A DNA stretch of 64,000 nucleotides from Pyrenophora tritici-repentis (Eukaryota > Ascomycota > Dothideomycetes > Pleosporales > Pleosporaceae), in the NCBI RefSeq assembly GCF_003171515.1, contig NC_089393.1, positions 930,001 through 994,000 on the forward strand, given 5' to 3'. Made by a program: the position numbers and the translations under genes. Of the stretch, positions 16,516 through 36,555 are shown one piece after another. Under the pieces are notes generated by a model that saw nothing but the letters and a program-made list of their open reading frames with translations, was not told the DNA's origin and ran no database searches. Every line of letters starts with the position of its first letter. The first letter of the stretch is position 1.

Positions 16516-18786
16516 TCATGTGCTTAGACCCATCATCTTCCTCCTCTGTTTCTCCGCCCACTCTCGACTCGCGATCCTGCCTCTTTCGGCAGCTTCAGCT
16601 CGCGCCCGCTTAGCAGCCTCTTCCTTCTCCCTCCTCTCACGCTCTCGCGCCTCCTTCTCAATGCGATCGCGGTTGAAGACCTCTCTGCCCTTGACCTTTT
16701 GGTGTACCACGTCAATGGGCGTAACGACAGCCTTGGGGACAATGATACTGTTGCGATTCGACGAGGAGTTGGAAACAGAGCGTGACTGTGAGGTAGACTG
16801 CGAGAGCGACATGCTACTGCGCTTGCTAGCCAACGAGGTTGCGCGCTGAGCCTGTGGTTGTGGGGGAGGGATTGTGACGCCTGGCTGTTCATGTTGGCGG
16901 ACGGGCATCGTGACCGGTTTGCGGATAGCTGGCGCTTGTCGCGTCTTGAGCGCAGCTTCCTTCTTTGCAGCTTCAGCCTCTTCCATGCGCTTCAGCCGCT
17001 CCTCTCGCTTGATACGTAGCTTTTCGGCCACGGCGGATCCCGGCAGCTCAAAGTGTGCCTTTGTGGGCGCTTTGGTCGATTTTGCGTGGGGCGCCATGCT
17101 GATGCTGACGGGGCGCGGGTTGGGCGCTGAGTGTTGGGGCGCCTGAGCTTCTCTCTTTTCTCGCTCCTCTTTCTGGGCTCTGAGTTTCTCAGCTATCTTC
17201 TCGCCAGGCAATTGGAATGCAGGTTTCGTAAGTGGTTTGTTTGACTTTGGTGGCGGAGGCATGCTCAGTGGGCGTGCCTTTGGGGCCACACCCTCCGCCT
17301 CTCGCTTTTGGCGCTCCTCCTTTTGCGTCTTTAGCTTTGCGACTACGTCGTTGCTTGAAAGCTGGAATGTTGCCCTCGTAGGCGCACGACCTTTTGGCGG
17401 TGGTGGTGGAGTAGGAAAGCACATGCTGACCGGTCGACGTTTCGAAGCCAGGTAGTCCACCGTCTCTGTCGGAGCTATTTTGACCTCTTTGTTAGATGCC
17501 ACACGTACACTCGTCGTTCGAGCGATTGAAGATTTGATTGGCTTCATGCTTTTGGGCGCAGACACACTTGGTGCCCTCGAAATCCTTGTAACCGTGGTTG
17601 TCGCTTCCTTTGCTGTCCCTGGACGCACATCTGATGTAATGATACTTTTGGCGAACTCCTCCATGATAGGAGTCTTCTCCTCCTCAACCCGGTCAAAGCT
17701 GCCAAGTGACGTGACATTCTCCAGAGCCTCCTCGAGCGCATCGATAGCCTCGAATGACTCCTCAAGACGCATCGGCGATTTCGACGGGCTACGCGACAGT
17801 CGTCGGATTGAACTGGCTCTCGTATGTGGTGTCATGGGCGCTTCGATGGGCATGTCGATTTCAAGTGCCTTTGGCTCTGGTTCCGAATTGTTTTCGACTG
17901 AGGACACTGGGGGTTCAGGGTCTACTTGAGGTGCTTGAATTGGAGCCTCAACTTCAGTCACTGCTGCTTCTGGTTTGGGAATTTCGCGAGACTCCTCGGT
18001 ATTTGGTTCCTCGATCTGCGGCACCTCTGGTGCGGTTTCCTTAGACGCTTCCGTTTCGACGATTTCTTGAGACAGTTCAGGTTCCGCGATGGCTTCGGCC
18101 TCAACCTTTGTTACCGGTTCCACGGCAGACTCTAAGACGGGCTCTTCCTTTGCATCAGCAACTAGGGGCTCTTGGGCTATCATGTCCACGTCTTTGGCAG
18201 GTGCGTCTGTACTAACATTTACTTCAACCATATCTTCTGTCGTGTGCGGGACCTCGGTTCCTGGCTCTTGGGGTGTCGGAGCACATTGCTCTTGCTTCGA
18301 TTGCTCTTCTTGTATTGCTAGTTGTCGACGTGTCATATGCACTGGCTTGGGAGGTGGGGTTACAGGCCGCTCAGTGTTTGCGACCACTTCTGCATTTTCT
18401 CCTATCAAGTCGTCGTCAGCCGATGTTCTATGGCGCGGAGCCGCAGTAGACTGACCGTGTGGGAGGGCTTTGGTGTCATCTTGGTCGGCTTCCTCGTTTG
18501 CAGGCGCTTCAATTGAGGCCTCCTCATCTTCCGGTCCGACTTCAACCTTCTCCTTGTCTTCCTCGGTTGCTTTTCCTTTCTTTCCCTTCTTCACGCGGCC
18601 CTTTCCCTTGGTCTTCTTTCCTGGAGTCTTTCCTGGAGTCTTCGCAGGCAATTCCTCGTCGTAACGGTTTTGCTTTGGCGATTCATTTGTCGAGATGTCG
18701 TTGAGAGGCGCACGCTCGGTCGCGTCGATCGCCTCCTCAGCGCCCTGCTGGGCTCGAGCGCGTGTCAGACGCATTTTGGTATCCAA
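16516..18786 (-). CDS. large repeat-containing charged protein, uncharacterised
   Basis: This is a single-exon product of 756 residues. The N terminus is basic (KTPGKTPGKKTKGKGRVKKGKKGK), followed by a long acidic, Pro/Glu/Val-rich middle. A block then contains three imperfect repeats (about 16960-17440 on the plus strand). Each has an RP(V/L)S(M/I) element, a Pro-rich linker, then F(Q/E)L-x5-7-AEKL-x5-EER-x-KR. The C terminus is a strongly charged helix rich in Arg, Lys, Glu and Ala ending in KMMGLST. The repeat core (Phe, KL, EER, KR) recalls microtubule-binding TPX2-type C-terminal motifs, but this is only a resemblance. Most of the chain should be disordered. The start at 18786 is the first ATG; a second (MRLTRARAQQ) lies four codons downstream and may be the true one. 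It is divergent from the aminotransferase gene across 527 bp. Confidence 0.75.
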   Translation of the reverse strand: MDTKMRLTRARAQQGAEEAIDATERAPLNDISTNESPKQNRYDEELPAKTPGKTPGKKTKGKGRVKKGKKGKATEEDKEKVEVGPEDEEASIEAPANEEADQDDTKALPHGQSTAAPRHRTSADDDLIGENAEVVANTERPVTPPPKPVHMTRRQLAIQEEQSKQEQCAPTPQEPGTEVPHTTEDMVEVNVSTDAPAKDVDMIAQEPLVADAKEEPVLESAVEPVTKVEAEAIAEPELSQEIVETEASKETAPEVPQIEEPNTEESREIPKPEAAVTEVEAPIQAPQVDPEPPVSSVENNSEPEPKALEIDMPIEAPMTPHTRASSIRRLSRSPSKSPMRLEESFEAIDALEEALENVTSLGSFDRVEEEKTPIMEEFAKSIITSDVRPGTAKEATTTVTRISRAPSVSAPKSMKPIKSSIARTTSVRVASNKEVKIAPTETVDYLASKRRPVSMCFPTPPPPPKGRAPTRATFQLSSNDVVAKLKTQKEERQKREAEGVAPKARPLSMPPPPKSNKPLTKPAFQLPGEKIAEKLRAQKEEREKREAQAPQHSAPNPRPVSISMAPHAKSTKAPTKAHFELPGSAVAEKLRIKREERLKRMEEAEAAKKEAALKTRQAPAIRKPVTMPVRQHEQPGVTIPPPQPQAQRATSLASKRSSMSLSQSTSQSRSVSNSSSNRNSIIVPKAVVTPIDVVHQKVKGREVFNRDRIEKEARERERREKEEAAKRARAEAAERGRIASREWAEKQRRKMMGLST

Positions 18787-29823: not shown

Positions 29824-29828
29824 CTTAT
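29824..29828. repeat. target-site duplication, left copy (CTTAT)
   Basis: CTTAT directly before the left LTR; the same five bases follow the right LTR at 36551-36555. Five bp is the usual duplication made by Ty3/gypsy integrases. Confidence 0.95.
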
Positions 29829-29970
29829 TGTGAAGGTCGTCCGAAGATGATCTTGGGTTGGTTCTCGGGGATGGAGTGATGCGATGGACACGAGGTTGTA
29901 TAGCACGATTGGTAGATCGATGTAATATACGGGGAGTTGAGAATCAAGTACTAATCCTTAGATTTCGAAG

Positions 29971-30014
29971 TTGAACACAATGAACCGTAAGGGCTCATTG
30001 CCTACTGTTATATA
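29971..30014 (-). promoter_or_regulatory. LTR core promoter: TATA box and likely RNA start
   Basis: In element sense a TATATAA box begins at 30014 and GTGTTCAA lies at 29978-29971. That spacing puts the expected RNA start at or just before this motif. The equivalent in the active 5' LTR is 36358-36315. The motif is complementary to the likely priming site next to the 5' LTR. Confidence 0.6.
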
Positions 30015-30023
30015 ATAAGCGTG

Positions 30024-30095
30024 CCCTCCATTGTGGCCTTTCCCTCCATGGAGGTCGCACCCTCCGTGGAGGTCATGCCCTCCATGGCGGTCATG
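30024..30095. repeat. four tandem 18-bp units in the LTR (U3)
   Basis: Units begin at 30024, 30042, 30060 and 30078, each starting CCCTCC. The second contains the perfect palindrome CCTCCATGGAGG; the third and fourth differ by one base each (CCTCCGTGGAGG, CCTCCATGGCGG); the first is more diverged. They lie immediately upstream of the LTR TATA box in element sense, where activator sites usually sit. The right LTR has the same array at 36368-36439. Confidence 0.9.
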
Positions 30096-30207
30096 CCAAG
30101 GTTGGAGGGCAGGTCACGTGACTGCGCGGCACAAGCTTACCCGCTGTGCCCCGCCTTCAACGTTGTCCTGCCGTTGTTGCTTGTCCTTCTCCTTGCAATC
30201 GTAACAC

Positions 30208-30222
30208 TACCTCCCCCTTCCA
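30208..30222 (-). other. polypurine tract
   Basis: In element sense, a GGAAGGGGGAGG-type purine run lies directly upstream of the 3' LTR, the expected primer for plus-strand DNA synthesis. Confidence 0.85.
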
Positions 30223-30280
30223 GCGTATCGTCCCTGATACGTAGATTATCCGTGCCGTGGGGTCGCATAAGAGGTCCTGT

Positions 30281-30289
30281 GTATAAATA
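30281..30289 (+). promoter_or_regulatory. TATA box of the antisense gene
   Basis: GTATAAATA lies about 56 nt upstream of the ATG at 30338, in the internal region just outside the LTR. It is oriented for plus-strand transcription, opposite to the element's genomic RNA. Confidence 0.6.
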
Positions 30290-30337
30290 CTCGTGGTGGG
30301 TCGTCTTGTTTTCTGAATCCTTACAGCCTCCCTGACC

Positions 30338-30928
30338 ATGCCTAAAGAACCGAGGACCCGTGCGTCTCGCAAGAAGACAACCACCGAAGAGCGTTACGAA
30401 CGCCTCCGTCGTGTCGAGCTTTCTGGACGAGAAATGCCGTTTCGCTGTGAGCGTTGCGAAAAGAATAACCTGCGGTGTTTTGTGGATACGGTGTCTGGTC
30501 GTTGTGCGGGTTGCATCTCAGCGCGATGCGACTGTGAGTTGTTTGTTCCTGAAGAGGAGTGGGAAAAGGTGGAACAAGAAAAGCGCGATAAGGAGCTCGC
30601 GTTGCTACGTTTGGAAGAAGAGGTTGCCCGGGCTCGTCGTGAGCTGGCTGAGATAAGAAATCGTGAGCTGGCGTTTGCTCGTCGCGATCGAAAATTGTTG
30701 GATGCCTCGGAGCGGGCTCAGTCGTCGGAAAGTGGCAGTACTGTCGCCGCGTCTTCTTCTATCGGTTCTACCGCTGATCCGGGCTGGTCACAGGCCAACA
30801 ACCTTCTTGATCCTTCGCTTGATCAAATTCTTAATGACTTCTTCCTTGAGGCCTCTGCCTCTGATCTCGATCCGTTTTCCTCGGCTGGTTCTTCTGGTAT
30901 TGCGCCAGGAGTTGCCGACAGTTTGTGA
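30338..30928 (+). CDS. antisense Zn(II)2Cys6-type protein inside the gypsy element
   Basis: The intact 196-residue product has six cysteines spaced C37-x2-C40-x6-C47-x8-C56-x2-C59-x6-C66, an exact match to the fungal Zn2Cys6 binuclear cluster (C64 is extra). The N terminus is basic (RTRASRKK). Residues about 71-120 form a charged helix, rich in Glu, Arg and Leu, suited to a coiled-coil dimer. The tail is Ser-rich, then acidic and hydrophobic (LDQILNDFFLEASASDLDPF), like an activation domain. The gene fills the gap between the pol-region stop (30831) and the polypurine tract and overlaps the chromodomain frame by 98 bp on the other strand. The usual Lys/Arg-rich loop between the second and third Cys is weak (EKNNLR), so DNA binding is likely but not certain. 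Inferred role: regulator of the element or of host genes. Confidence 0.75.
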   Translation: MPKEPRTRASRKKTTTEERYERLRRVELSGREMPFRCERCEKNNLRCFVDTVSGRCAGCISARCDCELFVPEEEWEKVEQEKRDKELALLRLEEEVARARRELAEIRNRELAFARRDRKLLDASERAQSSESGSTVAASSSIGSTADPGWSQANNLLDPSLDQILNDFFLEASASDLDPFSSAGSSGIAPGVADSL

Positions 30929-31276
30929 GATTGGTATCTGGTTCCCATGTATTTTCGCTGTCTGGGTATCCTAACCATTTGACTAGGTATTCCATGCCGT
31001 TGTCCACAACTCGATGTGTGACAATGTTCTCGACTTCAAATTCGTTTTCTTCTTCCGTTTCGTAGTGGAAGGTTTTCTGTAATGGCGTGTCTGGGTGTGC
31101 TGGTTCCAAGAGGCTTACGTGGAACCTAGGATGTATTCTAGCGTCTGGTGGAAGGTCAAGTGTGTATGTAACTGGCCCTTTCCGGTTAAGAATCAAAAAT
31201 GGTCCGACTTTGACGTTGTCGAGTCCTTTGCTTGGTCGCTTCGTGCGAAGATTCTTTGTGCGTAGATAAACTTTAT
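30831..31276 (-). pseudogene. chromodomain end of pol, out of frame with the main pol frame
   Basis: This frame contains a classic chromodomain (EVENIVTHRVVDNGMEYLVKW, with GYPDSENTWEP) preceded by the ILNRKGPVTYTLDLP and RIHPRFHVSLLEP elements found after the integrase in chromoviruses. It should be the C terminus of the integrase. It is displaced by one base relative to the upstream pol frame at the C run 31277-31281 (five G on the sense strand). Chromodomains of this kind steer integration to modified histones. Confidence 0.85.
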
Positions 31277-34200
31277 CCCCCTCTTTAGCTGAGGTGCCAT
31301 TTTTCGTTTCTTGTTGACATATGAAATGCTTTGACGTTGTGCTGTCTCGAGTTTGTTCTGTAGCAACTCATGTACTGCCTTCAGCTCCTCGGCTGTGGCG
31401 ATAGCTGCTTCCGTTTTCTGACTTGGAAGTGTGCGTGTAAAGAGATTTGGGTGTCTCCCGTGGTTTGCATAGAACGGAGTCTGTCCCGTAGACTCTGAAA
31501 GCTTGTTATTGTATGCCATTTGTGCCATTGGCAGAAGCGAAACCCAGTTGGTTTGCTGATGGTTGACGTATATCCTGAGATATGCTTTCATGGTTCTGTT
31601 CGTTCTTTCTGTCTGTCCGTCCGTCTGCGGATGAAACGCTGTTGATAGCTTGCGTTTTGTACCAATTGCGGCCAAAAGTGTCGTCCAAAAGTTTGAAGTG
31701 AAGAGCTTGTCTCTGTCGCTTATGATTGACTTTGGTATGCCGTGATGTCTGATGATTCGATCGTTGATGATGTGAGCCAGATGTACTGCCGTGAAATCGT
31801 TTCTGAACGGGATGTACTCTGCTTGCTTGGTGAATCGATCGATTACAACGAGTATTGCGTTGTATCCTGTGTTTGTCGCTGGGTCTCTTGAGACTGGTAG
31901 ACCTGTGACAAAGTCCATAGAGATGTCTGCCCAAGGTTCCGTGGGTAGTTCTAGTGCTTGCATCTCACCGTAAGGTGCATGCGTGTCGTGTTTGTTCTTC
32001 TGACAGTCTGCACATTTCGTGATGAATGAGGTAACCTTTTCCTTCATTCCTGGGAACTCGTAGTTGCGTCTGATGAGTTCCATTGTTCTGGTAATGCCCG
32101 GGTGACCGTGTACAGGGTCGTCGTGGTGTTGTTGAATAATTGCCTCTTGCAATTCTTCCGGTACATTGTTTCCGATGTGGAGGATGGCGTTCAGCGTTTT
32201 TGTTGGTTCTAGCGATCCGTCCTTGTTAACCTTGAGTATCGCGGTGTCGATGACTTCCTTGGTGCCTGCGATATCTGGTCTTCGGCTGAGAGCGTCTGCT
32301 CTGCCGTTCTCTTTTCCTGGTGTATACACAATCTTGAACTTGTATTGTCCGAGTAGTTCTGACCATCTTACTTGTCTGCGGTTGAGTACTTTGGTGGTCG
32401 TAAAGTTCACTAGATTTTTGTGATCTGTGTATATCGTAAGTTCCGAGCAGCTTTCTGCGTATACTCTCCAGTGTTGTAAGCATGCGACAATAGCTAGTAG
32501 CTCCTTGTCGTGAACGTCGTATCGTTCTTCTGGTCCTGAGAATTTGCGAGAGTAGTAGGCGATGGGGTGCCATTTGCCTTCGTGCAATTGACTTGCGCAT
32601 CCGCCTAGCGCGAGATCCGATGCGTCGGTCTCAAAGCGTAATGGGTGTCCTGCTTGGAATATTCGAAAGCATGGTGGTTCTATGCTTGCTTTCTTAAGCG
32701 TTTGGAATGCGTTCTCTGCTTCCTTGCTCCATTTAAAGGGTACGTCCTTTCTTGTGAGTTTTGTCAAAGGGATGGCGATGTCTGAGAAGTCCTTGATGAA
32801 CTGTCGGTTGAAGTTCAAGAATCCTAAGAAGGACTGTATCTGTACAACTGTTGTCGGTGTTGGCCAATCCTTGATAACCTGAATCTTTTCTTCGCTCATT
32901 TGTACTCCGTCCGCTCCTACTACATAGCCTAAGAAGTTGACCTTAGTCTTGTGAAATTCACACTTCTCTGGTTTGAGTCGGAGGTTGAACTGCTCAAGGG
33001 CCCTTAGTACCGTCTTGACATGTTCCACATGGTCCTCTAAAGTCTCGGAGTAGACGAGAATGTCGTCTAGGTAAGCTATGACAAAGATGTCTAGATGTGC
33101 TCTCAACACGTTGTTGATGAGTTCCTGAAATGTGGCTGGGGCATTCGTGAGCCCAAACGGCATAACTGTGTATTCGTAGTGTCCGTATCTTGATCGGAAC
33201 GCCGTTTTCCACTCCTCACCTTTCGCTATGCGAATCAGGTGGTATCCATCTCGAAGATCTAATGCTGTAAAGATCTTTGCGCGAGATAATCGATCCCGTA
33301 GTTCTGTAATGTTCGGTAAGGGGTATCGATTCTTGATTGTGATGTCGTTGAGCTTGCGATAGTCTACACATAGTCGTAGTTTTCCGTCTTTCTTTGGGAC
33401 AAACATGATTGGATATCCTGCTGGTGACTGCGATGGTCGGATATATTTTTTTGCTAGACTTGTCTTGATGTAGTCGCGTAACGTGCTCAATTCTTTTTCC
33501 GATAGTCCGTATATTGGGCCGAAAGTCGGTTTCTTTCCTTCCTGTAGGACAATCTTGTGGTCCCAGGGTTGGTGCTTTGGCAATGCTTGTTCATCTGCCA
33601 CTTCCCGGAATAGATGTTCGAATTCTTTGTATTCTTCGGGAATCTCAGGAGTTGCGCGTTTCTCCAAAACTCTAGTCTGTCGACCCGGTGGCTCCGTTCC
33701 GGCGTCTGCTGAGTCGGACCCTTGTTTCTTAAGGCCGTCCTTTGTCGAGGCTCGCTTTTTCTTTGCGATGTTATTCAGTTTCCTCTCATCTACCATCGTA
33801 CTCTGACAATGCGTAGGCTGGCTTGTGGTTGCGTCCGTTCCACAGCACTCAAATGAGAACGTCTTCGACTTCCAGTCGATCCGTGGGTTGTGTTCTCGTA
33901 ACCAGGGAAGTCCTAATATGATGTCGTGGGTAGCTAGTCCGAAGACATCTAGGTCTATCTTCTCTTGGTGTCCTTGGATGTTGAGCGTCACTTGTCTGAC
34001 CTCATGGGTGATCTCTTGTTCACCTGGCATTGGCTCTCCGTTGGCCACATGTAGTGGGTAAGCTTCTTGTTTCCGTAGTGGCTTCAGTCCGGCTGAAGAC
34101 GCTGCGTGCGCTGAAACGTAGTTGGCTTGTGATCCCGAATCTACTAATGCCTTCATCCACCTCCCTTCAAGCTTCACCTGGAGCTTGATGAGGTCTAAGG

Positions 34201-34309
34201 AGTTTACTGAGTTAATCTCCTTGCCGGGCCGTTCTAGGCCGGGCGCTGGTCTAAAAAAGCCTGATTTCCAAATCCATGGAATCCTTTGGCTATCGCATGA
34301 AGGTCGCAT
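31193..34309 (-). CDS. pol: gypsy pol polyprotein (protease, RT, RNase H, integrase)
   Basis: The frame has 1038 codons from its first ATG. Landmarks in order: retropepsin-like DSG at 57-59 with ILGLPWL at about 131-137; reverse transcriptase with KDGKLRLCVDYRKLN and the active-site YLDD at about 413-416; RNase H from FETDAS (about 559) through ELLAIV and TDHKNL; integrase zinc motif (HH...CADC, about 728-769) and catalytic D799, D865 and E901 (SMDF, SDRD, TERT). It follows gag after 67 nt in another frame and has a stop just before its ATG, so it needs re-initiation, a frameshift or a separate transcript. The last 27 or so residues are an out-of-frame tail caused by the one-base shift at 31277-31281. 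Confidence 0.93.
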   Translation of the reverse strand: MRPSCDSQRIPWIWKSGFFRPAPGLERPGKEINSVNSLDLIKLQVKLEGRWMKALVDSGSQANYVSAHAASSAGLKPLRKQEAYPLHVANGEPMPGEQEITHEVRQVTLNIQGHQEKIDLDVFGLATHDIILGLPWLREHNPRIDWKSKTFSFECCGTDATTSQPTHCQSTMVDERKLNNIAKKKRASTKDGLKKQGSDSADAGTEPPGRQTRVLEKRATPEIPEEYKEFEHLFREVADEQALPKHQPWDHKIVLQEGKKPTFGPIYGLSEKELSTLRDYIKTSLAKKYIRPSQSPAGYPIMFVPKKDGKLRLCVDYRKLNDITIKNRYPLPNITELRDRLSRAKIFTALDLRDGYHLIRIAKGEEWKTAFRSRYGHYEYTVMPFGLTNAPATFQELINNVLRAHLDIFVIAYLDDILVYSETLEDHVEHVKTVLRALEQFNLRLKPEKCEFHKTKVNFLGYVVGADGVQMSEEKIQVIKDWPTPTTVVQIQSFLGFLNFNRQFIKDFSDIAIPLTKLTRKDVPFKWSKEAENAFQTLKKASIEPPCFRIFQAGHPLRFETDASDLALGGCASQLHEGKWHPIAYYSRKFSGPEERYDVHDKELLAIVACLQHWRVYAESCSELTIYTDHKNLVNFTTTKVLNRRQVRWSELLGQYKFKIVYTPGKENGRADALSRRPDIAGTKEVIDTAILKVNKDGSLEPTKTLNAILHIGNNVPEELQEAIIQQHHDDPVHGHPGITRTMELIRRNYEFPGMKEKVTSFITKCADCQKNKHDTHAPYGEMQALELPTEPWADISMDFVTGLPVSRDPATNTGYNAILVVIDRFTKQAEYIPFRNDFTAVHLAHIINDRIIRHHGIPKSIISDRDKLFTSNFWTTLLAAIGTKRKLSTAFHPQTDGQTERTNRTMKAYLRIYVNHQQTNWVSLLPMAQMAYNNKLSESTGQTPFYANHGRHPNLFTRTLPSQKTEAAIATAEELKAVHELLQNKLETAQRQSISYVNKKRKMAPQLKRGIKFIYAQRIFARSDQAKDSTTSKSDHF

Positions 34310-34376
34310 TCTTTGCTAAGGCACGTTTGCCAGTTGGGTTGTTGACATTCCCAAGCGTCTCCTTCATCGTATTCTT

Positions 34377-36155
34377 TTAGCCATACTGTTTGCATCTGAT
34401 CAATTTCTTCGGGTTGTCGTGACCTGGGAAGTATGTTTTTTCCCTTTTGTCCCATAGGTGTATTGGGCATAGGTCGTTTTTGCAGTCGAAGAATTGCCAC
34501 TTGCAGCGGTACGATCGTTTGGTTTCTTCTGGGAACCATCCTGATCCGGACTTATCCGAGTAGTGTACTCTGCAATGGTCGTGAATGCATGTGACCCATG
34601 ATAACTTCTCATGTTCTGGGTTCCTAGGGTCCATCCAGTAGTCGTATTCCTTTGATCTACTGATGTCCTTGGCCTTTCTCTTGTGGCCGTGTTGGAAGGT
34701 CTTCCAATCGTTCCTGGTCTGGCAGAGTTCGTCGTAGATCTCTTGCTTCTCTTCTTCCGAGATTGGCAACGTTGGTTCTTCCCATGATCGGATTGCGTCT
34801 TCGATCCAGCTTAGTTCCCATGTTGTTGGTAGGAACTCCAATATTTCGGTTGAAACGTTTTCCTTGTTTCGTTGTACTTCTAGTGACAATCGGTAGAAGT
34901 CCTGTCGCATAGCAGCCATGATGCTAGGTTCCTCGTAGGCGTACTCGATATCAGCCTTGTTGAGGTGTCGTAGTAGCTGGTTGATCTGTCCTGCGAGCTT
35001 GTAGAACTCTTCTTCCTGTACATAAGGTGTGGATGGCCTGTTGACTTCTTCGAATGTGGCCATCTTGCCGAATTTGGTCTGGTCGATTTCCGTAGCCTCT
35101 AAGTTCTTGGACTCATCTTCGAGCATATCGTACTCCGAAGTGGGCTCTTCTTCTGAGTCTGATTCCACGAGTGTGAGGTTATCCAATCCCAAAACGCTTT
35201 CCTGCGTGTTGATTTCGATGGTTGGTTTGGATATGACATTCCATGTCTCGTGTCGCTCAGTGGGTACTGCTTTGTGGATAACGTTGAGTTGTCTAACCAC
35301 TTTGTTCTTGCTGTGGCAGTCCCTAGCCATGTGACCTTTCTTGTCACAATTATAACAAGTGATCTCCTTCTTGTTATATGGCTTCTTCTTGTCATTCCTT
35401 CCGAAACTCTTGCCTTTGTTGATGTTGTCCAGTTGCATTGCATCAGGGTCATGCCAGTTGTTACCGGCGGAGGGTACAACACCTCCGGGTGTCATCCGAT
35501 ATCCTGGTTTCTTCTTGAAGAATCGTCCCTTTGTGCGTTGCACTGACTGGTTGGCTCTAACCGGTCGGATTTCCTGCTGCAATTCGTAGAGTGCGTTGTC
35601 GATACGAATTGATTCTCGGATGAGATCCTGTAGGTTGTTGATTGCGACGCCGCTTCGCATAAGCTCTTCTTTGACTCTTTCCTTGAGTCCTTGTCTGTAC
35701 ATAACCCTTAATGCCTTGTCGTCCCAGTCGGTCTTCAGGGCGTGTCCCTGGAAGACACTGGCGTAGTCGGCGACTGATTGGGTTTGTTTGAGCTGTTGGA
35801 TTGCACGATCTGCCTTGGATTCTTCGTTGATGACTCCGAATTGCTGTCTAAGCTTGTCTTTGAAGGTTGGGTGGTCTTCAAACATTCGTTCAATATCGTC
35901 GTCGTCATCGTTGTCGTCCATGTATTTGTTGAGGTAAGGCTTGATCCAGGTGGCGGCAGTTCCTCGCATGTAACTTGCCATGAGCAGTCCACGATCAGTA
36001 GGGTCGACCTTCTCATCTTCAAACCTGAAGAAGAGATCGAACTGGAGAATCCAGTCTTCGAGCTTGTGTCGATCGCCGTGAAATAGATCGGGTCTGGCCA
36101 CCTTGGTGCGGCTTGACGAAGTTTCGTTAGGTGTGTTCATCGGGGTGTCACTCAT
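34377..36155 (-). CDS. gag: gypsy gag protein
   Basis: From the ATG at 36155 the product has 592 residues. A retrotransposon-gag region (FHGDRHKLEDWILQFDLFFR through RQQFGVINEESKAD and VADYASVFQGHA) is followed by a basic linker and one CCHC zinc knuckle, CYNCDKKGHMARDC (C-x2-C-x4-H-x4-C). The C-terminal part carries two further similar modules with a C-x4-C-x2-H pattern (CIHDHCRVH and CKNDLCPIH), each followed by an aromatic-Phe-Pro element (GWFPEE and TYFPGH). Two longer starts upstream (TTG/ATG near 36170) are less likely because the PBS region occupies 36163-36172. Confidence 0.9.
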   Translation of the reverse strand: MSDTPMNTPNETSSSRTKVARPDLFHGDRHKLEDWILQFDLFFRFEDEKVDPTDRGLLMASYMRGTAATWIKPYLNKYMDDNDDDDDIERMFEDHPTFKDKLRQQFGVINEESKADRAIQQLKQTQSVADYASVFQGHALKTDWDDKALRVMYRQGLKERVKEELMRSGVAINNLQDLIRESIRIDNALYELQQEIRPVRANQSVQRTKGRFFKKKPGYRMTPGGVVPSAGNNWHDPDAMQLDNINKGKSFGRNDKKKPYNKKEITCYNCDKKGHMARDCHSKNKVVRQLNVIHKAVPTERHETWNVISKPTIEINTQESVLGLDNLTLVESDSEEEPTSEYDMLEDESKNLEATEIDQTKFGKMATFEEVNRPSTPYVQEEEFYKLAGQINQLLRHLNKADIEYAYEEPSIMAAMRQDFYRLSLEVQRNKENVSTEILEFLPTTWELSWIEDAIRSWEEPTLPISEEEKQEIYDELCQTRNDWKTFQHGHKRKAKDISRSKEYDYWMDPRNPEHEKLSWVTCIHDHCRVHYSDKSGSGWFPEETKRSYRCKWQFFDCKNDLCPIHLWDKREKTYFPGHDNPKKLIRCKQYG

Positions 36156-36162
36156 CTTGAGG

Positions 36163-36170
36163 GTGTTCAA
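36163..36170 (-). other. likely primer-binding site (self-priming)
   Basis: In element sense TTGAACAC lies two bases after the 5' LTR. It lacks the TGG expected for a tRNA primer. It is the exact complement of GTGTTCAA at the predicted start of the element RNA (36322-36315). The Tf1/sushi group of chromoviruses primes in this way, from its own RNA 5' end. Confidence 0.55.
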
Positions 36171-36172
36171 AG

Positions 36173-36550
36173 TGTGAAGGTCGTCCGAAGATGATCTTGG
36201 GTTGGTTCTCGGGGATGGAGTGATGCGATGGACACGAGGTTGTATAGCACGATTGGTAGATCGATGTAATATACGGGGAGTTGAGAATCAAGTACTAATC
36301 CTTAGATTTCGAAGTTGAACACAATGAACCGTAAGGGCTCATTGCCTACTGTTATATAATAAGCGTGCCCTCCATTGTGGCCTTTCCCTCCATGGAGGTC
36401 GCACCCTCCGTGGAGGTCATGCCCTCCATGGCGGTCATGCCAAGGTTGGAGGGCAGGTCACGTGACTGCGCGGCACAAGCTTACCCGCTGTGCCCCGCCT
36501 TCAACGTTGTCCTGCCGTTGTTGCTTGTCCTTCTCCTTGCAATCGTAACA
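36173..36550 (-). repeat. LTR, right (5' LTR in element sense)
   Basis: It has the same length (378 bp) and, as read, the same sequence as 29829-30206. It is followed by the second CTTAT copy at 36551-36555. Confidence 0.96.
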
Positions 36551-36555
36551 CTTAT
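36551..36555. repeat. target-site duplication, right copy (CTTAT)
   Basis: Matches 29824-29828 exactly. Confidence 0.95.

Follow-up and report, generated by a model that had tools for sequence, protein, structure and literature searches.

Antisense genes in LTR retrotransposons

Antisense genes located beyond pol are known in many long terminal repeat (LTR) retrotransposons, and the available portions of two reports call their function undetermined (PMC7264820, PMC11963269). Here we describe such a gene in a 64,000-nucleotide stretch of Pyrenophora tritici-repentis DNA (contig NC_089393.1, positions 930,001 to 994,000 of the forward strand; hereafter the window). It lies in a chromodomain-bearing Ty3/gypsy retrotransposon of a family that we designate A, and two sister families, B and C, are present in the same genome. 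The type of the encoded protein, a zinc cluster, is recognizable, and three divergent versions of it stand on almost identical backbones in one genome, each with its own candidate sites in the U3 region of the LTR. We consider it probable, from comparison of these sequences, that the antisense regulator and the U3 make up an exchangeable cassette whose protein would control the LTR of its own family.

Several described systems invite comparison. The brtn gene of Boty-like elements was reportedly the subject of Zhao et al. 2011, Virology 417:248. Encoded antisense in these Ty3/gypsy elements of Botrytis cinerea (PMC7264820, PMC4227169, PMC8365987, PMC5987419), it has a setting like ours: the host element is a fungal gypsy retrotransposon with chromodomain, and the additional gene stands in reverse orientation between pol and the 3′ LTR. 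The available parts of its descriptions mention no zinc cluster, no co-exchange of gene and U3 and no pairing with U3 motifs; BRTN could yet turn out to be a relative. In plants, antisense open reading frames (ORFs) include gene23 of maize Grande and those of rice RIRE2 and of Retand, the latter with a TRP28 domain (PMC7264820, PMC11963269). This domain probably binds DNA, and regulatory roles have been proposed, according to the accessible text (PMC11963269). The likeness to the plant genes, as far as these texts go, consists of the antisense position between pol and the 3′ LTR, nuclear localization or predicted DNA binding, and a proposed regulatory role. They differ in their domains (TRP28, SMC) and, for Retand, in a non-chromovirus lineage, and nothing in the same portions of text links the protein type to a U3 motif.

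An antisense-encoded transcription factor that originates from the 3′ LTR side and acts on the element's own transcription is found in HBZ of human T-cell leukemia virus type 1 (HTLV-1), as described in the available text (PMC3736048, PMC5797633). HBZ, however, is a bZIP protein of an animal retrovirus and not a zinc cluster. An HBZ-type factor was rejected as a candidate for the window protein, which has no bZIP match in Pfam at E<=1 and carries a six-cysteine cluster instead. We know of no cassette exchange for HBZ. Our search of the open-access literature returned no description of an LTR element with an antisense zinc-cluster gene, nor of pairing or co-exchange of such a gene with U3.

The antisense gene and its predicted fold

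The features of the window that define the gene are the following.

29829..36550, minus strand: Ty3/gypsy chromodomain LTR retrotransposon, family A (identical LTRs, target-site duplication (TSD), Pfam domains)
30338..30928, plus strand: antisense zinc-cluster gene, 196 amino acids, ATG to stop (ORF call)
30282..30289, plus strand: TATAAATA, 5′ of the antisense gene in family A (consensus match)
30831..31196, minus strand: pol 3′ end, with integrase C-terminal SH3 and chromodomain (ORF call, Pfam)
Family A protein, by residue: basic N-terminal part; Zn(2)Cys(6) motif at 37-66; long helix at 72-133; tail with helix at 159-172

The ORF noted in the first-pass annotation was confirmed, with 196 codons open from ATG to stop (window 30338-30928, plus strand). 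Its cysteines (37, 40, 47, 56, 59 and 66) have exactly the spacing that had been claimed, C-x2-C-x6-C-x8-C-x2-C-x6-C. The gene is on the plus strand and the gypsy element on the minus strand, and the reported orientation opposite to the genomic RNA is correct. The TATA box assigned to the gene is present as a sequence match in family A, but TATAAATA occupies 30282-30289 and not 30281. The gene had likewise been placed between the pol stop and the polypurine tract (PPT); it is not wholly beyond the stop, since the ORF runs tail to tail into the chromodomain-bearing 3′ end of pol and shares the final 98 bases of that end (30831-30928). An intact antisense ORF does stand beside a damaged pol, as annotated: the pol frame of 1161 codons, present in three of the five family A copies, is broken in the integrase C-terminal region in the window copy.

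In all five family A copies of the genome searched (40.9 Mb), the antisense frame is open and the protein identical. The protein has 44 matches at E<=0.01, the window's own protein among them (first row), and all six cysteines are invariant in the 37 aligned family A sequences (query included), at identities down to 34%. An additional cysteine, C64, occurs in three of the 37. Among the named matches in the family A and C homologue searches are Pyrenophora teres and P. tritici-repentis, at 98% identity over part of the protein. The conservation of the frame in five copies, the 44 protein matches and the invariant cysteines indicate that the ORF is more than chance and, on this sequence evidence, the retrotransposon has a real gene here.

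The Pfam family of zinc-cluster proteins (PF00172, Zn_clus), whose classical role is the regulation of transcription, has the pattern C-x2-C-x6-C-x5..12-C-x2-C-x6..8-C. All three families conform to it, with x6/x8/x6 in A, x6/x8/x7 in B and x6/x12/x6 in C. The window protein itself gave no Zn_clus match in Pfam at E<=1. An outside homologue, P0033, scored above the Pfam cut-off for Zn_clus (27.5 vs 21 bits), and matches at E<=0.1 were obtained with 15 of 37 A, 10 of 37 B and 7 of 46 C family sequences. No zinc cluster came up at E<=0.1 when solved structures were searched by sequence; a single-sequence search reached HAP1 at E 0.45.

The structure of the family A protein was considered at the level of a predicted model. 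The model has two short cluster helices (38-43 and 57-62), followed by a 62-residue helix (72-133); this is the arrangement of PF00172, a zinc-cluster fold and then a dimerizing coiled coil. Among the 13 entries listed in the structure comparison, rank 1 was a kinetochore coiled coil and the other 12 were zinc-cluster proteins, including HAP1, PUT3, GAL4, Pho7, Leu3, 1cld and PPR1, at low Z scores of 2.0-3.4. We take 1cld and Pho7 to be members of the zinc-cluster family. The two short helices, the long helix and the 12 zinc-cluster entries, low Z included, make the model compatible with the binuclear zinc cluster that the annotation had supposed. The protein shares with GAL4, HAP1, PUT3 and PPR1 the six-cysteine spacing, the two short helices, the following coiled coil and, in family C, sites of the dimer type. 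It differs in being small, in its antisense location in a retroelement and in half-sites that are not CGG, the textbook half-site of GAL4-type proteins. From sequence and model, the antisense protein is probably a small, dimeric zinc-cluster DNA-binding regulator.

The tails of the proteins are conserved within each of families A, B and C, and are acidic-hydrophobic by eye. The segment between the second and third cysteines, which is the usual DNA-contacting part of zinc clusters, is in family C the most variable segment measured (mean entropy 2.48 bits), compared to 0.42-0.85 bits over the 60 residues after the cluster. Such variability is expected if specificity itself is diversifying. The loop is better conserved in A (0.92 bits) and in B (0.71 bits).

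Three gene and U3 versions on one backbone

The exchanged part of the element extends from the gene into the adjoining LTR.

30207..30221, minus strand: polypurine tract (polypyrimidine on the plus strand, read from sequence)
30019..30206: U3 of the 3′ LTR, the family-variable part, with CACGTG at 30115-30120
29829..30206, minus strand: 3′ LTR, 378 bp (LTR comparison)

A DNA search of the genome with the pol 3′ end as query found 25 places, corresponding to 5 A, 10 B and 10 C copies. Each of the 25 pol 3′ ends has one antisense six-cysteine gene in the same orientation, 5-62 bases away. The copies read were L060 and, in part, L061 for B, and one 3′ end, L073, for C. From 31029 through gag, A and L060 are 94-100% identical in 200-base bins, and in the 770 residues searched the family C pol protein is 98% identical to that of A. 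The LTR likewise has a half that the families share, R/U5 (29829-30018), with 97.9% (B) and 95.2% (C) identity to A. Between these conserved parts, at about 30029-30928, the identity of A to L060 drops to 31-55% in 100-base bins, and the same step is seen between A and L073. This dissimilar stretch comprises the antisense gene, the PPT and the U3. At the U3 (30019-30206), identity to B and C in 100-base bins declines from 86-98% to 31-43%. Polypurine tracts similar to that of family A occur in L060, in L073 and in a distant element, L076, discussed below. The locus looks like one gene position that holds deeply diverged versions on a young shared backbone, and the co-exchange of gene and U3 as a block is established at the level of sequence.

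The family B gene is an ORF of 189 amino acids and the family C gene a frame of 183 codons, each with six cysteines in zinc-cluster spacing. Homologue searches returned 59 proteins for B and 96 for C, a 169-residue piece being the query for the latter. With rows containing gaps left out, the first three cysteines of family B are conserved in 22/22 sequences and the others in 36/36, 35/36 and 36/37, and those of family C in 44/44 and 46/46. Profile comparison with hhalign related the families to one another with probabilities of 96.8% (A-B), 90.2% (A-C) and 95.6% (B-C), the E-values being for one comparison each. Whole open frames are found in 21 of the 25 copies (5/5 A; 8/10 B, free of stops; 8/10 C, whole), and the sister copies have few stops, where frequent ones would have spoken against the first-pass interpretation.

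These frames bear on the possibility that the antisense RNA acts, by control based on double-stranded RNA (dsRNA), and that the frame is incidental. A dsRNA-mediated action has been suggested for the antisense transcripts of LTR elements, according to the accessible text (PMC7264820). We regard this explanation as extremely unlikely for the present gene, given that each of three protein families of divergent sequences has kept its cysteines along with much of the protein and that the frame has stayed open in so many of the copies.

Three other arrangements were seen in the genome. The 1.8 kb that follow a truncated backbone copy (C6:138109, L075) match none of A, B and C. At L035, a B-type LTR (G000:C10:3519436 onward) begins exactly at the end of a C-type U3 of opposite orientation (3519435, the U3 spanning 3519200-3519435), probably as a B element inserted in a C-type LTR. 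Within 4.5 kb of the same contig (G000:C10:2085644-2090163), four complete or partial C-type U3 matches stand in a row; as read from these matches, this is an LTR tandem or a set of nested insertions.

Family-specific motif arrays in U3

In the window, the array lies in both LTRs.

30019..30114: array with the motif of family A, seven CCTCC/GGAGG half-sites that stand between CACGTG and the LTR TATA (about 30009-30015)
36173..36550, minus strand: 5′ LTR, with a U3 copy at 36363-36550 that has the same CCTCC array

Each family has a motif array upstream of the LTR TATA. Counted on both strands of the A, B and C U3s, respectively, CCTCC occurs 7, 0 and 2 times, GTCCYA 0, 8 and 0 times, and CCTCG 0, 0 and 8 times. 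The hexamer CACGTG is common to the three U3s, and all of the A sites, all of the C sites and seven of the eight B sites lie between it and the TATA. The top 5-mer count was reached by 1/400 shuffles for A and by 0/400 for both B and C; the top 6-mer count by 1/400, 16/400 and 0/400, respectively. In a comparison with real sequence, about 12,550 stretches were taken from the window with overlap; the top 6-mer count was reached by 54 of them for A, by 266 for B and by 70 for C, and the examples listed were simple repeats.

The geometry of the sites differs between families. Family C has four convergent CCTCG-N12-CGAGG pairs, each 17 bases apart, and 11 of 50,000 random placements were as good. 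GAL4-type dimers read palindromic half-sites with a fixed spacer, and the family C pairs have this GAL4-like layout. The A sites follow an 18-base period (470/50,000 random placements as good), and the geometry of the B sites is not unusual (26,523/50,000). Three variant C-type LTRs (L078, L079 and L080) carry three CCTCG-N12-CGAGG pairs, each pair 17 bases apart, with three different spacers; for the L078 set, 95 of 50,000 random placements were as good. These variants differ from C mainly by one absent unit. Because the spacer sequences differ, the spacing is not simply a product of tandem duplication. Two diverged A-type LTRs, L028 and L029, have five and six CCTCC sites before CACGTG, and the family A spacing is not kept in them. 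In L031 (C3:1044421), an A-type LTR start has a U3 that runs into a long GGGTTGG-type repeat. In the U3 searches, 40 of 105 and 104 candidates were scored, and further U3 types may exist beyond those scored.

Gene and U3 adjoin, and co-exchange alone is thus no proof of a functional pair. Retroviral enhancers bind different host regulators. The arrays could do the same, the U3 being swapped to suit a niche, with the gene swapped along and acting elsewhere in the life cycle. The CACGTG in all three U3s is a possible host-factor site, and insect endogenous retroviruses adapt their cis-regulatory sequences to cell types, as stated in the accessible text of one study (PMC12992720). Nevertheless, by prediction the protein that is swapped belongs to a type that binds DNA sequence-specifically, and the C sites are paired with fixed spacing, as expected for a zinc-cluster dimer. 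An adjoining but functionally separate gene seems rather unlikely to us on this evidence.

The arrays also recall VANC of the VANDAL transposons of Arabidopsis, the closest parallel in this respect, an element-encoded, sequence-specific protein that has evolved jointly with family-specific tandem motifs, according to the available text (PMC5735166). Tandem repetition is frequent in the targets of VANC, and the repeats change from one related element to another, much like our U3 arrays; an anti-silencing protein of this sort would bind the arrays in the noncoding DNA of the element and remove silencing. The same text has VANC acting by loss of DNA methylation and encoded by a DNA transposon without LTR, and it is a different protein (PMC5735166). 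The window element, an LTR retrotransposon, is not a member of that system. Our arrays are at promoter distance, and the classical role of zinc-cluster proteins is in transcription. We consider anti-silencing improbable.

A proposed exchangeable cassette of regulator and U3

We return to the reading that we prefer, in which protein and array form a pair. The cassette would consist of the end of pol, the antisense gene, the PPT and the U3, and would be exchanged between elements as a block. In the genomic RNA, the 3′ order would be gag, pol, (antisense gene), PPT, U3 and R. With a single template switch near the end of pol during copying, both the gene and the U3 would be exchanged, after which the new U3 would enter the two LTRs through reverse transcription. 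By this route gene and U3 would change as a block while R/U5 would stay shared. The antisense gene would be expressed from or beside the U3 of the 3′ LTR. Each U3 array would be the likely binding site of the protein of its own cassette, each protein controlling only its own family. The U3 faces the antisense gene in the 3′ LTR and gag-pol in the 5′ LTR, so that an array-binding protein could control both, gag-pol via the 5′ LTR and the antisense gene itself via the 3′ LTR. The U3 of the 5′ LTR, with its CCTCC array, would be the gag-pol control region. We infer the transcription of the gene, the DNA binding and cognate specificity of its protein, the sign of the regulation and the template-switch route. 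The first interpretation of the antisense gene, as a regulator travelling with the element, is supported, and its self-control half is strengthened by the circumstantial evidence of family-specific U3 motifs.

As to sign, we lean toward activation over repression, in view of the conserved acidic-hydrophobic tails (by eye) and the promoter-proximal sites. The sites here are just upstream of TATA, the usual place of activator sites in fungi. The opposite sign would make the protein a repressor or copy-number controller that shuts the LTR of its own family, akin to immunity, with the cassette swap as an escape from the resident repressor, comparable to that of phages with a new immunity group. 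The anatomy and the family-specific motifs fit such a controller equally, and exchange on one backbone is what escape would presumably select. A precedent for antagonism is HBZ of HTLV-1, which counteracts the viral activator Tax, according to the accessible text (PMC5797633). The position of the sites and the tails conserved within each family both speak against a repressor, which we hold to be possible though doubtful.

Phage immunity regions consist of a repressor plus its operators. The present locus resembles them in that regulator and sites are exchanged together on a shared backbone; the life form and the proteins are different, and this is a resemblance only. There is, in our estimate, an even chance that fungal chromoviruses carry exchangeable regulator-operator cassettes, in which an antisense zinc-cluster gene is linked to a U3 with its own binding sites; swaps of these onto a shared gag-pol would make new regulatory specificity groups, as the retrotransposon counterpart of phage immunity regions. 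Near-identical sister elements bear different versions of the gene, each with its own control region, as if each had its own lock and key. If the pairing is true, these elements constitute a natural set of matched regulators and promoters, and would show how elements can stay independently regulated inside one host. Fungal genomes could also receive new regulator specificities from elements in this way.

Distribution beyond the three families

A pol scan of bacterial and archaeal genome contigs yielded two fungal-type contigs, L076 (JAPYPR010000053.1) and L077 (QHXS01000208.1). Both are filed in bacterial metagenome-assembled genomes (Erythrobacter, Acidobacteria) of the GTDB representative set, in probable binning errors. 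L076 (6,021 bp, 46% pol identity) has gag and a pol with chromodomain, followed by an antisense ORF of 211 amino acids with six cysteines and a 104-base overlap with the pol end, and then by a PPT and the start of an LTR. The first cysteine loop of its protein has seven residues, compared to six in A, B and C, and the protein has no Zn_clus match in Pfam at E<=1. In a search of the genome, it matched the 10 B and 5 A copies (E 1.4e-7 to 5e-4), and the C copies were not found. Against the A, B and C profiles its probabilities were 96.5, 97.5 and 95.2%. Homologues are therefore antisense in other elements as well, at the 25 sister pol 3′ ends and in this independent one, which bears out the first-pass annotation of the gene as carried by the retrotransposon.

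The second contig, L077 (49% identity in the best segment), has no antisense ORF of at least 80 amino acids in the 471 bases left beyond pol. The genome that holds families A, B and C contains a more distant chromovirus group, with 32 of 59 gag-pol rows at 40-49% identity in a search in which 58 of 318 candidates were scored. In the one copy examined, L074 (41% identity), pol ends directly at PPT and LTR, without an antisense gene. L077 and L074 indicate that the gene is a lineage feature and not universal. With queries A1, A2, A3 and pol, the same architecture was not found in viral contigs, nor was it found with query A3 in bacterial and archaeal genome contigs.

The homologues of the A, B and C proteins come from organisms that, we presume, include several Pleosporales; an Elsinoe record and a Flavoplaca record are among those of family C. 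By hand count over the 199 homologue rows (A, B and C), the 6-7 kb class holds 25 longest contigs, compared to 7 in the class of 4-5 kb, 3 in that of 5-6 kb and 6 in that of 7-8 kb. A length of 6-7 kb is about that of one element, which suggests that the homologues elsewhere are also within elements. Some homologues in metagenome records bear the unrelated names TFIIIB Brf1, RnfC, CheZ and DUF169, probably by automatic misannotation.

One other relative of the gene was found in the genome (L006/L055, C2:4210943-4211436). It is heavily degraded, and its best match contains TAG four times and TAA once; many TAG and TAA stops are a pattern that repeat-induced point mutation would give. There is no gag or pol match in 9 kb at L055, in a tblastn search that also missed the degraded gene itself and is for this reason a weak control.

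This distribution bears on a last alternative, that the gene is a zinc-cluster gene of the host, taken up as a passenger in recent time. LTR elements are known to capture genes, as noted in the available text (PMC7264820). Yet all 25 genome copies are beside this pol, the single other relative is degraded, homologues are spread over the fungal groups named above and the independent element L076 has such a gene too. A recent passenger is, on these grounds, very hard to credit.

The host element

The remaining features of the window element are as follows.

29824-29828 and 36551-36555: TSD CTTAT, flanking the family A element
31193..34309, minus strand: pol, with protease, reverse transcriptase, RNase H and integrase (ORF call, Pfam)
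34377..36170, minus strand: gag, with Retrotrans_gag, CCHC knuckle and two WCCH stretches (ORF call, Pfam)

The element has the LTRs, the TSD, gag, the order of protease, reverse transcriptase, RNase H and integrase, and the C-terminal chromodomain of a Ty3/gypsy chromovirus. Its two 378-bp LTRs are identical, and the five family A copies of the genome have five different 5-bp TSDs. The two WCCH-motif stretches (PF03716) are in the C-terminal part of gag (34377-36170) and are seen, weakly, also in the gag of L076. Elsewhere in the window, at 16516-18786, there is a large open frame of 756 amino acids in a stretch with strong AT skew (-0.31).
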